A DNA stretch of 40,217 nucleotides from Nitrososphaeria archaeon (GTDB lineage: Archaea > Thermoproteota > Nitrososphaeria > Nitrososphaerales > JAAOZN01), in contig JARVJZ010000006.1 of the NCBI GenBank assembly GCA_029775855.1, forward strand, positions 140,353 through 180,569. Direction: 5' to 3'. Below, one piece after another: positions 35,433 to 39,813 of the stretch. Position numbers and translations under genes: made by a program. The stretch's first letter is position 1, and the number at the start of each line of letters is the position of its first letter. The notes below the pieces were generated by a model. The model was not told where the DNA came from and searched no databases. It worked only from the letters and a program-made list of their open reading frames with translations.

Positions 35433-36926
35433 ATGCAACCACTCCATCTACTTGAGAAGAAGATTTTAAGAGCGTTAAGCGAGGTAGGTCAAGCAGATTT
35501 AGAGGGGTTAATTTCATCTTCTAAACTAAGCGAAGACCAAGTTAGAAGAGCGATAGAGTGGCTTCAAGCAAAAGGTTTCATACAACTTAACACGACGCAG
35601 AAGAATCTAATTGCACTTGGCTCTAAAGGGTTAGAAGCACTTAAAGAAGGGCTGCCTGAGCGTAGACTCATACAACACCTAAAGAAAGGCGTAAAGAACC
35701 TAGTTGAATTGAAGGGTTTATTCAAAGACGAACAAGAGTTCAGCGCATCCTTAGGCAGAGCCAAAAGGAGGGGCTGGATCAAGATAACGAACGATTGTGT
35801 AGAGCTGGTAAACGAGCCCAGCAGACTACCTGAGGAAGATTTGCTCGAGAAGTTAAGTGTTAAGCAGAATGTGGAGGAAGAGGAGTTAGTCAAAGACAAG
35901 GTGCTCTATGAAGGTGTAAAAGAGCTCCTGAGCAGACCCAACTACCTATCTAAAAAAGTCGTTAAGAAGGTTCAAGTAAGCCTAACAGAGCAAGGTAAAG
36001 CAGCCTTAAAGAGCATAGTCGAGGAAGAAGAGCTAGACGCTCTAACCCCAGAAACAATAATCTCAGGTATATGGAGGCAGAAGCGCCTTAGAGCAATAGA
36101 TGTAGAGGCGCCAGCACCACCAATCTACGCTGGAAGAAGACACCCTGTTCAACTATTCATAGATGAAGTTAGAGAAATCTTCATCTCTATGGGGTTTGAG
36201 GAAATAGAGGGTTCACTAATACAACCTTGCTTCTGGAACTTTGATGCACTCTTTACACCACAAGACCACCCTGCTAGGGAGATGCAAGACACATTCTACA
36301 TAAAAGGCGTGGCTCAGAACTACGCTGATAAAGAAGAAATCGCAAAGGTCTCTGCAACCCACAAAGACGGGTGGAGAACAGGCTCAAGAGGCTGGGGCTA
36401 CAACTGGCGAGAAGACGAAGCAAAAAAGCTTGTTCTCAGAACCCACACAACATCCATAACAGTAAGATACCTTGCTGAGCATAAACCAAAAGAAGCAAGA
36501 GTATTTACAGTTGGAAGAGTATTCAGAAACGAAAAAGTAACCTTCAAGAACCTAGTTGAATTCCACCAGATAGAGGGTATAGCGGTAGGACCAAGACTTA
36601 CACTAAGGGACCTAATGGGTCTGCTCTCAACCTTCTATAGGAGGCTGGGGCTAGAGAAAGTGAAGTTTTGGCCCACATTCTTCCCCTATACTGAGCCATC
36701 TATGCAGTCTGTAGTCTACTATGATAAAGCTGGTAAATGGATTGAGCTCTGTGGCATGGGGATCTTTAGACCAGAGGTGACACTACCTTTTGGTGTAAAG
36801 AATCCGGTGTTGGCTTGGGGCGGGGGTTTAGAGAGGTTGGTTATGATGAAATATGATTTGGATGATGTAAGAGAGCTTTACGCAAATAGGCTGAGCTGGT
36901 TAAGGAGGAGCCCACTTTGCCTGTAG
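35433..36926 (+). CDS. pheS: Phenylalanyl-tRNA synthetase alpha subunit
   Basis: The 497-residue catalytic subunit of archaeal-type PheRS. Winged-helix modules occupy the N-terminal 215 residues (for example the L-S-E-D-Q-V-R-R-A-I-E-W-L helix), followed by the class II catalytic core. Visible are H-P-V-Q-L-F-I-D-E-V, T-H-T-T-S-I-T-V-R-Y, motif 2 G-R-V-F-R-N-E, F-H-Q-I-E-G and motif 3 A-W-G-G-G-L-E-R-L-V. All expected landmarks are intact. The start is ATG 35433. The gene overlaps pheT by 10 bases, and GGAGGAG at 36904-36910 serves the pheT start. Confidence 0.96.
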   Translation: MQPLHLLEKKILRALSEVGQADLEGLISSSKLSEDQVRRAIEWLQAKGFIQLNTTQKNLIALGSKGLEALKEGLPERRLIQHLKKGVKNLVELKGLFKDEQEFSASLGRAKRRGWIKITNDCVELVNEPSRLPEEDLLEKLSVKQNVEEEELVKDKVLYEGVKELLSRPNYLSKKVVKKVQVSLTEQGKAALKSIVEEEELDALTPETIISGIWRQKRLRAIDVEAPAPPIYAGRRHPVQLFIDEVREIFISMGFEEIEGSLIQPCFWNFDALFTPQDHPAREMQDTFYIKGVAQNYADKEEIAKVSATHKDGWRTGSRGWGYNWREDEAKKLVLRTHTTSITVRYLAEHKPKEARVFTVGRVFRNEKVTFKNLVEFHQIEGIAVGPRLTLRDLMGLLSTFYRRLGLEKVKFWPTFFPYTEPSMQSVVYYDKAGKWIELCGMGIFRPEVTLPFGVKNPVLAWGGGLERLVMMKYDLDDVRELYANRLSWLRRSPLCL

Positions 36927-38578
36927 TAACCGTATATTATGACAGGCTTAGAAGACTGATGAACACAAGCGACATAGAAGCTTGTATAGAGCGTCTACCA
37001 TACCTAGGGTTAGACATAGAGGAGCGTGCTCAAGACTACATAAGAGTGGAGTATAACCCCAATAGACCAGACTTCTCAACAGATTACGGCATAGCAAGGG
37101 CTTTAAAAGGGCTCCTTGGGTTGGAGAAGGGCTGCCCAAGATACACTGTGCACAAAAGCAACCTTCTGGTTCAAGTAGACCCAAGCGTAAAAGATGTTAG
37201 ACCATACATAGTCTCAACACTAATAGAAGGTATCACTTTAGACGACGAGACGATAAGGCAGATCATAGCGATGCAAGAAGATCTGCATCACACAATAGGG
37301 CGAAGAAGGGCAAAAGTTTCAATAGGCATACATAACTTCGATGTTCTCCAGCCCCCAATCATCTACACAACTGAAACGCCTGAATTCAGATTCATACCTC
37401 TAGGCGGAGTTGAACCCCTATCTATGAAGGAGATTCTTGAAAAGACTTCTGTAGGTCAGAAATATGGCTGGATAGTCTCAAAGTATCCACGCTACCCCAT
37501 ACTGATAGATTCGCTTGGTCAAGTGCTCTCATTCCCACCTATAATCAACGGCGAACTGACCAGACTAACACCAGCTACAAGAAACTTATTCATAGACATA
37601 ACGGCAACAGACTTAAAGGCTGCTGAAGACACACTAGCCATACTTACAACAACACTAGCAGACGCAGGAAGCAAAATTAACTCAGCTGAAATACACTACA
37701 CAGATGGGAGCATAGTTACACCTAACCTCGCTGAGACAGAGATGAAGATTGAATTAAGGCGTGTAAATAGGCTGCTTGGGCTTAAGCTAAGTGGTGAAGA
37801 AGCTGTAGAATGCTTGGCTCGAAGCAGAATAGACGCAACCTACACAAACAGTTGGCTTAAGACTAAGATACCAAGATACAGAATAGATTTGATGCACCCA
37901 GTAGACCTTGTAGAGGAGGTCGCAATAGGCTACGGCTTAGATAGACTTACACCTACACTCCCCCCCTCAACAAGTGTAGGCAGAGCTCATCCTGAACTCA
38001 AAAGACTCTCTTTGATAAGAGAGGTGTGTGTTGGACTTGGTTTAACAGAGGTTATGAACCTTAGCCTCACAAGCGAAGCAACCCTATACACCAACCTACA
38101 AAGGGAAGCAAGCAGCGCCATAAAGGTAGAGGAACCTAAGAGTGGTGAACATGAATATCTAAGGGACATGCTCATACCAACCCTACTATCAAACCTATCA
38201 ACCAACATCCACGAACCATATCCGCAGAAACTCTTTGAAATCGCCAAAACCTTCCAAAGAAGAGGAGAAGAAATATACGAAGAATACCATGTAGCGGTAG
38301 TCACATCACATTCGGAAGCAAACTACACAGAAGCAAAGTCGCTACTCGACGCACTACTGCAACAAAGCTTAGGAATCAAATGCGAAACAAAGCCAGCAGT
38401 CAACCCCCTCTTCGTAGAGGGAAGGTGTGCCGAAATCAGAAAAGACAACCTAAAGGGAGTAATTGGAGAAATAAAACCAGAAGTACTACAAGCATTCCAC
38501 CTCAGAATGCCAACAGCAGCATTCGAACTAAACATAAACCAAAACACACATCATATAAATAACAACACCCACAAATAA
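36917..38578 (+). CDS. pheT: Phenylalanyl-tRNA synthetase beta subunit
   Basis: The 553-residue partner of PheS carries the B3/B4 editing domain and B5 DNA-binding-like fold. V-E-Y-N-P-N-R-P-D-F-S-T-D-Y-G (about 43-57) and G-R-R-R-A-K-V-S-I-G-I-H-N are characteristic of archaeal/eukaryotic PheT, as is the length. V-A-I-G-Y-G-L-D and A-H-P-E-L lie in the C-terminal core-like domain. The start is TTG 36917. The last dozen residues are an Asn/His/Thr-rich tail, and the DNA encoding it carries the TATA element of the downstream RNA candidate. Confidence 0.95.
   Translation: MPVVTVYYDRLRRLMNTSDIEACIERLPYLGLDIEERAQDYIRVEYNPNRPDFSTDYGIARALKGLLGLEKGCPRYTVHKSNLLVQVDPSVKDVRPYIVSTLIEGITLDDETIRQIIAMQEDLHHTIGRRRAKVSIGIHNFDVLQPPIIYTTETPEFRFIPLGGVEPLSMKEILEKTSVGQKYGWIVSKYPRYPILIDSLGQVLSFPPIINGELTRLTPATRNLFIDITATDLKAAEDTLAILTTTLADAGSKINSAEIHYTDGSIVTPNLAETEMKIELRRVNRLLGLKLSGEEAVECLARSRIDATYTNSWLKTKIPRYRIDLMHPVDLVEEVAIGYGLDRLTPTLPPSTSVGRAHPELKRLSLIREVCVGLGLTEVMNLSLTSEATLYTNLQREASSAIKVEEPKSGEHEYLRDMLIPTLLSNLSTNIHEPYPQKLFEIAKTFQRRGEEIYEEYHVAVVTSHSEANYTEAKSLLDALLQQSLGIKCETKPAVNPLFVEGRCAEIRKDNLKGVIGEIKPEVLQAFHLRMPTAAFELNINQNTHHINNNTHK
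38553..38560 (+). promoter_or_regulatory. TATA box for the RNA candidate, inside the pheT 3' end
   Basis: ATATAAAT at 38553-38560 matches the archaeal TATA consensus and lies about 25-27 bases upstream of 38581-38584, where the GC-rich structured segment begins. It is within the last codons of pheT. Confidence 0.5.
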
Positions 38579-38580
38579 TA

Positions 38581-38747
38581 GGCGAAGGCCTCTGCCAAAC
38601 AGCGTGGCGACGGCGGGTGTTTGAGCAAAGATGAAAACCCCGTTTACCCAAACACGCAACAAGCAGAGGCCGCCCCGGGGTAAGAGGCTTAGTGAGAGGA
38701 GGCAAAGCCTCTCTATGATCCGAGCTGTTCAGAGCCGGGGTACAGCC
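38581..38747 (+). ncRNA. Unidentified GC-rich structured RNA candidate
   Basis: About 57 percent GC against a mid-40s background, with no plausible reading frame. GGCCTCTGC (38587-38595) pairs perfectly with GCAGAGGCC (38663-38671), extended by GGC/GCC outside a small bulge. Inside, GCGTG (38602-38606) and GTGTTTG (38617-38623) are alternative partners of the CAAACACGC run at 38649-38657. A second domain has CCCCGG (38673-38678) facing CCGGGG (38735-38740), enclosing a bulged hairpin at about 38695-38714 with an AAA loop. A TATA box lies at the right distance upstream. It lacks the conserved motifs I know for RNase P, SRP, 5S or tRNA. A leader or riboswitch of the following transporter gene is the main alternative. 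Direction and ends are inferred. Confidence 0.5.
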
Positions 38748-38791
38748 AAATTTCAGCAACACTTAATTACATATGAGCATAGTTGAGAATT

Positions 38792-39700
38792 ATGGTTCTA
38801 CGCTTCATCGTAGACAATGTGTTAAGAAACTCGACAGTCATACTTTTGTTGGCGATCTTTATCGGGTTGACCTTCCCACAAGCAGCCCACTTCTTCAAGG
38901 GCTATGTGAACTACTCTTTGATCATTATGCTTACAGTTTCAACTATGGGTATGCGCATCAGAGCAATCTTTTCGGCAAAAAGGGGAGTGAAGACGATTTT
39001 AATTGGGTTAACCTTAAATTATGTTGTGCTATCAGCGCTCTGCATACTTCTCGGCTACATCTTTTTCCCGATGGATGTTGAGCTAAGAAACGGATTTGTA
39101 GTTATGGCTGCTGTGCCTGTTGCTGTAGCTGTTGTTCCATTCACCTATCTTCTAAATGGTGATGCAGAGTATTCGATGAGTATAACTGCGCTTCTCTATC
39201 TTTTGGCGCTGATTTTAACGCCGCTTCTGATCTACATACTCTTCGGCTCAGCCATAAACCTCTTAGACCTAATCATACTTGATCTCCAGCTCATCCTACT
39301 ACCACTAATCCTTTCGAGGGTTCTACTGCTGCTTAAAGCAAATAGGCTCTCTAGAGGAGTCTACGACATTATAATTAACCTCTCACTTGTAGTCATAGTA
39401 TACGCAATAATAGGTGTGAACCAACCCACCTTCTTATCTGGAGAAGGGTTCCTCTACCCCATCTTAGCAGCCTCACTCATACGCACATTCGGCATAGGCA
39501 TCCTAACAGAAAAAATATCGGCAAAGATAGGTGTAGAAAAGCAGCTCATCCCACCCTTCGCCATGCTAGCATCCATCAAAAACATGGCGCTCACAAGCAC
39601 CCTAGCTCTAAGCCTATTCGCACCCAAAAGCAGCATACCAGCAGCAATATGCATGCCCCTAGAGATATTCTTCTTCATCTACCTTAAAGCAAAAGCTTAG
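38792..39700 (+). CDS. Bile acid:sodium symporter (BASS)-family transporter
   Basis: A 302-residue integral membrane protein with about nine to ten hydrophobic helices. The pattern M-A-A-V-P-V-A-V-A-V-V-P-F-T-Y-L-L-N-G-D near the middle is the conserved sodium-site and crossover region of the BASS fold. N-M-A-L-T-S-T-L-A near the C-terminus corresponds to the second half. Members carry organic anions or pantoate/pyruvate with sodium; the cargo here is unknown. ATG 38792 is preferred over TTG 38783. A TTAATTAC element at about 38763-38770 is a possible leaderless promoter. The stop lies directly before the tRNA promoter. Confidence 0.8.
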   Translation: MVLRFIVDNVLRNSTVILLLAIFIGLTFPQAAHFFKGYVNYSLIIMLTVSTMGMRIRAIFSAKRGVKTILIGLTLNYVVLSALCILLGYIFFPMDVELRNGFVVMAAVPVAVAVVPFTYLLNGDAEYSMSITALLYLLALILTPLLIYILFGSAINLLDLIILDLQLILLPLILSRVLLLLKANRLSRGVYDIIINLSLVVIVYAIIGVNQPTFLSGEGFLYPILAASLIRTFGIGILTEKISAKIGVEKQLIPPFAMLASIKNMALTSTLALSLFAPKSSIPAAICMPLEIFFFIYLKAKA

Positions 39701-39735: not shown

Positions 39736-39810
39736 GGGCCAGTCGTCTAGCTCGGTTAGGATATCGCCCTTACACGGCGAGGGTCGCAGGTTCAAATCCT
39801 GCCTGGCCCA
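39736..39810 (+). tRNA. tRNA-Val (anticodon UAC)
   Basis: A complete 75-base cloverleaf. The acceptor stem GGGCCAG pairs with CTGGCCC, the D-arm contains TAGCTCGGTTAGG, and the anticodon stem TCGCC/GGCGA encloses the loop CTTACAC with anticodon TAC. The variable region is GGGTC, and the T-arm GCAGG-TTCAAAT-CCTGC is perfect. The discriminator is A at 39810, and CCA follows in the DNA at 39811-39813, so the 3' end is genomically encoded. There is no intron. It reads GUA codons and possibly other valine codons by wobble. Confidence 0.97.
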
Positions 39811-39813
39811 CCA

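Follow-up and report, generated by a model that had tools for sequence, protein, structure and literature searches.

The segment between pheT and a transporter reading frame in this archaeal genome (1.5 Mb) is a genuine, ancient RNA gene with no match in Rfam, and the RNA represents a known functional class in an unusual architecture. With high probability, the gene encodes a two-hairpin archaeal box H/ACA guide RNA, which would possess its own promoter in the end of pheT and whose predicted targets are position 1921 and U1955 of 23S rRNA. This explanation draws on homology, covariation-based structure, H/ACA geometry, guide-target complementarity and synteny, all read from the sequence, and from these we infer transcription, assembly of the ribonucleoprotein, modification and the role of an additional outer helix. 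The RNA segment comprises about 166 nt within the window, i.e., the whole stretch of 40,217 nucleotides that was analysed. Its ends are approximate, as the 5' end was deduced from the TATA position and the 3' end from the ACA box. The predicted parts are as follows (all on the plus strand, the transporter frame being given without strand).

36917-38578, +: pheT (phenylalanyl-tRNA synthetase beta chain), open reading frame, conserved upstream neighbour of the H/ACA RNA
38552-38561, +: TATA-like box (CATATAAATA) in the last pheT codons, some 26-36 nt ahead of the outer helix
38581-38746, +: whole predicted RNA with two H/ACA hairpins, from conservation and fold
38587-38595, +: outer helix, 5' strand (GGCCUCUGC), from covariation
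38602-38606, +: hairpin 1 lower stem, 5' strand (GCGUG), from covariation
38609-38613, +: hairpin 1 5' guide (G-ACGG), its CGG pairing with CCG at E. coli 23S 1957-1959 in the target scan
38614-38624, +: hairpin 1 upper stem, 5' strand, with kink-turn GA (CGGG-U-GUUU-GA), from covariation and GA-stem length
38633-38642, +: hairpin 1 upper stem, 3' strand, with kink-turn GA (GA-AAACCCCG), from covariation
38643-38649, +: hairpin 1 3' guide (UUUACCC), pairing with GGGUAAG just 5' of 23S U1955 in the target scan
38653-38657, +: hairpin 1 lower stem, 3' strand (CACGC), from covariation
38659-38661, +: hairpin 1 ACA box, between lower stem and outer helix
38663-38671, +: outer helix, 3' strand (GCAGAGGCC), from covariation
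38672-38678, +: hairpin 2 lower stem, 5' strand (GCCCCGG), from the fold and alignment A10
38679-38685, +: hairpin 2 5' guide (GGUAAGA), its UAAGA pairing with UCUUA at 23S 1923-1927 in the target scan
38686-38695, +: hairpin 2 upper stem, 5' strand, ending in the kink-turn GA (GGCUUAGU-GA), from alignment A10
38714-38726, +: kink-turn bulge UAU, GA and hairpin 2 upper stem, 3' strand (UCCGAGCU), UGA being invariant in 36 homologs
38727-38734, +: hairpin 2 3' guide (GUUCAGAG), pairing with CUCUGAC 5' of the 23S 1921 uridine in the target scan
38735-38741, +: hairpin 2 lower stem, 3' strand (CCGGGGU), from the alignment
38742-38744, +: hairpin 2 ACA box, 15 nt from the first nucleotide of the 3' guide, ACA being invariant in 36 homologs
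38783-39700: transporter reading frame, downstream of the RNA segment

Judged from the pattern of substitutions among relatives, the structure of the RNA is under selection. Positions 38553-38747 fold 3.3 standard deviations better than dinucleotide shuffles (z -3.3, 0/200), and the first domain alone yields a z of -4.0 against shuffles. The nine-pair perfect stem 38587-38595/38663-38671 and the second bulged domain, both described in the original prediction, are present in the fold, and the covariation check proposed there for the stem revealed compensating changes in relatives: the pairing GGCCUCUGC/GCAGAGGCC is replaced by GUCUCCAUC/GAUGGAGAC in genome G021, and the helix takes many further compensated forms in others, with two-sided changes at all nine of its pairs. 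Taking hairpin 1 and the outer helix together, 21 of 22 pairs change on both sides among 34 diverse sequences, and the 175 double-change cells observed over these pairs and sequences compare with 64 in shuffles. The covariation score of 0.543 (0.206 when shuffled) was reached by none of 500 shuffles, while slid partners scored only 0.13-0.21. The lower stem of hairpin 1 is paired in 96.5% of cells and features two-sided changes in four of five pairs. In a second alignment, which was itself fitted to the model, 96.4% of cells pair compared with 78.3% after shuffling. Likewise, swapping strands between species lowered the pairing of the outer helix from 0.94 to 0.68 and that of the upper stem from 0.73 to 0.49 (0/2000 permutations). 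These pair counts cover hairpin 1 and the outer helix; the support for hairpin 2 consists in the conservation of its pocket, kink-turn UGA, lower stem and ACA, and in its lower stem CCCCG/CGGGG is visibly replaced by GCCCG/CGGGC. Pocket strands and ACA boxes stay fixed while the stems covary.

The assignment to the H/ACA class is close to certain on the basis of an anatomy of ACA boxes, kink-turns and pockets that had been missed before. Published rules for archaeal H/ACA RNAs ask for 10 pairs in the GA stem, place the ACA 14-16 nt away from the pocket and require three or more pairs with the target on either side (PMC4652768, PMC7991803). Both hairpins feature a lower stem, a pocket and an upper stem of 10 pairs to the kink-turn G.A pair, with an ACA 15-16 nt below. 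The distance from upper stem to ACA is 16 nt in hairpin 1 and 15 nt in hairpin 2 of the window. The ACA was found in 100/100 homologs for hairpin 1 and in 36/36 for hairpin 2, and in hairpin 1 its spacing from the first nucleotide of the 3' guide is 16 nt without exception among the 100 parsed homologs, the parsing having demanded the ACGG and an ACCC-type motif and not an exact ACA spacing. Two related loci (L043 and L072) carry AUA in place of the hairpin 1 ACA. The left strand of the hairpin 1 GA stem measures 10 nt (11 with one bulge) in 33/33 diverse representatives, in line with a stem of about 10 pairs closed by a kink-turn or kink-loop G.A, and both GA dinucleotides occur in 30 of them. 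Regarding the guides, ACGG of the hairpin 1 5' guide is present in 100/100 parsed homologs, and the 3' guide reads TTTACCC in 69 and TCCACCC in 21 of the 100; as the parsing demanded both motifs, their conservation is partly selected. In hairpin 2, UCAGA of the 3' guide is invariant in 36/36 aligned homologs, the 3' guide reads GUCAGAG in most relatives, and the guide is present in 86 of 102 loci.

The box H/ACA sRNAs of Pyrococcus, Haloferax and Archaeoglobus share the lower stem, the pocket, the 10-pair GA stem with kink-turn or kink-loop, the ACA 14-16 nt from the pocket and an rRNA target, but they usually consist of one hairpin that has a lower stem of 7-9 pairs and ends at the ACA. Hairpin 1 departs from this canonical form by its lower stem of five pairs and by the further covarying helix which encloses the ACA and extends beyond it. 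Since sR201 and sR202 of Pyrobaculum also have lower stems of only 5-6 pairs, hairpin 1 is regarded as a variant within the class. A Cbf5 gene is encoded in the same genome. In the window, a search of Rfam 15 returned nothing at the gathering threshold except tRNA, and the RNA was not matched in 18 homologous loci, which agrees with the proposal in the original prediction of a structured RNA outside the known families. A Pseudomon-1 hit on the opposite strand (E 2.8) was dismissed as a chance match. A literature search of partial coverage yielded no paper describing this pheT-linked RNA.

Going by PheT, the genome of the window has its closest named relatives in Nitrososphaeria/Thaumarchaeota. 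The RNA recurs behind pheT over a wide range of archaea. DNA searches detected it at 86% identity right behind pheT in a genome of the same genus and, as a weak match in the same place, in another family of the order. With a covariance model built on the first domain, it was recovered from 72 of 250 related genomes, and with an improved model from 49 of the 61 nearest genomes as well as from 145 of 398 across the phylum. The model of the second hairpin gave matches in 96 of these 398, among them f8 genomes in which the covariance models left hairpin 1 undetected; hairpin 2 adjoins pheT from behind in both f8 loci examined. According to tblastn, pheT lies beside the RNA in 40/50 and 32/48 homologous loci, in two sets which share a few genomes and include some short loci. 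The linkage spans Nitrososphaeria and many Bathyarchaeia, and named carriers include Nitrosotalea, Gagatemarchaeum, one 'Methylarchaceae' genome and several Bathyarchaeota. The arrangement of the hairpins varies in a set of f13 and f2 loci (L021-L023, L042, L048, L057): hairpin 2 lies about 90 nt or more downstream of hairpin 1 in the f2 loci and was not found adjacent to it in the f13 loci L021-L023. Candidate H/ACA hairpins that resemble hairpin 2 and carry GUCAGGG guides and an ACA occur in two more distant members of the phylum (L215 in G333, 1120-1189, and L216 in G437, 952-1020); pheT was not found beside them. In the window, a tRNA-Val gene (anticodon TAC) is situated beyond the transporter at 39736-39813; in genome G002 of the same genus, the RNA is directly followed by a closely similar tRNA sequence (L002, about 1357-1432), and the transporter was not found.

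Judged by sequence position, the RNA probably has its own promoter inside pheT. The TATA box that had been reported upstream within pheT could be placed at 38552-38561 and is positionally conserved: in 50 homologous loci, the AT fraction reaches at least 0.9 at -30 to -28 from the outer helix, and most homologs carry a TATA-like element at -35 to -27. Such a positioned element argues for a separate transcript starting approximately at 38581, where the start had been expected. Poly-T terminators after the last ACA are not enriched, with 25 of 69 homologs equalling the AAAA control. A sigma-70 promoter scan is inapplicable to archaea.

Targets were sought by the H/ACA pairing rule, according to which the 3' guide pairs 5' of the uridine and the 5' guide pairs after U-N. 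For both hairpins, a site was found in 23S rRNA with the U-N unpaired and at least three pairs on each side. The consensus of hairpin 2 (GUCAGAG; UAAGA) fits CUCUGAC-U-C-UCUUA with 7+5 pairs, a result obtained with 2 of 20,000 shuffled guides (35/20,000 for the f11 form and 4/20,000 for the Nitrosotalea form). In the window genome, the guide GUUCAGAG contains one extra U, so the match at 1921 requires one bulged U here; with no bulge allowed, the score loses significance (4,917/20,000). Hairpin 1 fits GGGUAAG-U-U-CCG with 7+3 pairs, where the 5' guide contributes just three contiguous pairs and the 3' guide starts with a G.U pair; by chance this fit arises in 407/20,000 cases with a 5+9-nt guide and in 238/20,000 with a 4+7-nt guide, a moderate significance of p about 0.01-0.02. 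The two predicted sites are 34 nt apart, and a distance of at most 40 nt occurred in 201/20,000 random guide pairs. Alignment to E. coli 23S rRNA identified them as positions 1921 (helix 69) and U1955 (helix 71 region), with 1921 being G in E. coli and U in the carrier archaea. The idea of U1955 as the site of E. coli RluC was dropped; RluC presumably makes Psi955, 2504 and 2580.

It is likely that hairpin 2 directs modification of position 1921, given the fit of its consensus guides. In yeast, Psi2264 of 25S rRNA in the helix 69 intersubunit bridge is made by the H/ACA RNA snR3, and 2258 and 2260 count as positions that yeast has in common with E. coli (PMC8307265). Because the latter two equal 1915 and 1917, position 1921 corresponds to Psi2264. 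In trypanosomes, several helix 69 guides, including that for Psi528, could not be removed (PMC10662448). The likeness of hairpin 2 to snR3 and to Trypanosoma TB3Cs2H1 (the guide for Psi528, which the spacing of the helix 69 sites places at 1921) lies in the target position only, as these eukaryotic RNAs have no kink-turn and no sequence homology is claimed. For hairpin 1, guidance of U1955 is plausible from its pairing. The yeast modification table (PMC8307265) lists nothing equivalent to position 1955. In f10 (Nitrosotalea type) and other lineages, the 3' guide of hairpin 1 reads UCCACCC or UUCACCC and fits U1955 less well, and a search of one Nitrosotalea 23S rRNA with flanks and of the 16S rRNA of the window genome gave no convincing better target for the f10-type guide. 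Thus, position 1955 in f10 is the weakest part of the assignment. In the 23S rRNA of three genomes (L144 in G008, L154 in G132 and L155 in G138), the stretch preceding CUUAAGGUAGC departs from the common helix 69 sequence in a manner that would fit a 23S intron within the predicted target of hairpin 2; matches to the large subunit rRNA are longer than normal in these and some other genomes.

In the proposed mechanism, a separate promoter within the last part of pheT would drive transcription of the RNA, and each hairpin would bind one set of Cbf5, Nop10, Gar1 and L7Ae, with L7Ae placed on the kink-turn and Cbf5 on the lower stem and the ACA box. The pocket would hold a stretch of 23S rRNA in such a way that one uridine reaches the active site of Cbf5 and is converted to pseudouridine. 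Hairpin 2 would most likely direct this reaction to the 1921 uridine in helix 69 and hairpin 1 most likely to U1955 near helix 71. The outer helix may act as a clamp around hairpin 1 and its ACA box, a role that would probably serve folding, stability or end-processing.

The closeness of both predicted targets on one rRNA stretch, the usual presence of both hairpins on one RNA and the retention of hairpin 1 in f10 despite its weakened target fit would also suit a ribonucleoprotein that serves mainly as a folding chaperone for rRNA, its pockets holding 1914-1926 and 1948-1959 at once, with modification being secondary or, for hairpin 1, lost. This is considered unlikely, since the catalytic geometry is kept (10-pair GA stem, 14-16 nt to the ACA), an H/ACA RNA is known to act at the yeast equivalent of position 1921 (PMC8307265), and one hairpin is separated or missing in some lineages. 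The deep linkage to pheT from Nitrososphaeria to Bathyarchaeia could moreover point to a regulatory element in the 3' UTR of the pheST operon, affecting mRNA stability or processing, in place of a free RNA. A positioned TATA-like box between most of pheT and the RNA, the concentration of conserved letters in pocket strands and ACA boxes, and several lineages with the RNA in which pheT was not found nearby (L019, L020, L024, L032) render this even less probable than a chaperone.

The original prediction had connected the RNA with a BASS transporter and had taken mutually exclusive inner pairings as a hint at a switch. Both pairings are indeed possible in this genome, and the location between pheT and the transporter would be suitable for a cis-regulatory switch or leader of the latter; yet just 6 of 33 diverse homologs reach 6/7 pairs for the alternative GUGUUUG/CAAACAC pairing, which is thus not conserved. 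The transporter was not found in any of the 49 other homologous loci tested, many of them with only about 800 nt of flank, and pheT is the conserved neighbour. No riboswitch of Rfam matched either, and a transporter leader or riboswitch, contradicted by synteny and covariation, retains very little probability. The least probable reading is another class of structured RNA (RNase P, SRP, 5S or tRNA-like), for which size and GC content might speak: archaeal RNase P and SRP RNA gave strong scores at other places in this genome, in keeping with the earlier statement that the segment does not show their conserved motifs, and these separate genes together with the empty Rfam search contradict such an identity.

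For the H/ACA guide RNA, the outer helix constitutes the unusual trait. It comprises 4-9 pairs, encloses hairpin 1 with its ACA box and covaries from Nitrososphaeria to Bathyarchaeia. An ACA-enclosing helix of this kind was not described in the literature searched, and as the coverage of this search was partial, the enclosing helix is likely rather than proven to be a new feature. The H/ACA-like sRNAs of Pyrobaculum also show an atypical archaeal architecture, but they are devoid of a lower stem, whereas the pheT-linked RNA retains this stem and has a further helix beneath the ACA box. Enclosure by a basal helix implies that Cbf5 must recognise the ACA in an internal loop and not at a free 3' end, which questions how strictly the enzyme needs a 3'-terminal ACA. 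The chances are about even that Nitrososphaeria and Bathyarchaeia possess a distinct H/ACA architecture in which a basal helix encloses the ACA and hairpin 1 makes Psi at 23S U1955.

With this RNA, a widespread gene without Rfam match is added to ammonia-oxidising archaea and their relatives, and two specific pseudouridines are predicted in the intersubunit-bridge region of the ribosomes of its carriers. Hairpin 2 would supply a predicted archaeal counterpart to snR3, the eukaryotic helix 69 guide for Psi2264. The covariance models could be used for annotating the RNA in carrier genomes. Besides, in Bathyarchaeota a second, different hairpin ending in GGGA-AACA was noticed by eye, which appears to be enclosed likewise. 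Four loci (L098, L100, L101 and L125) and Bathyarchaeota-like loci carry a second H/ACA-like hairpin (GAGAGAGCUUAACC...GUGGGAAACA) just after hairpin 1, which appears in turn to have its own outer helix such as GCGGGCGC/GCGCCCGC; the latter trait is that of the second hairpin.
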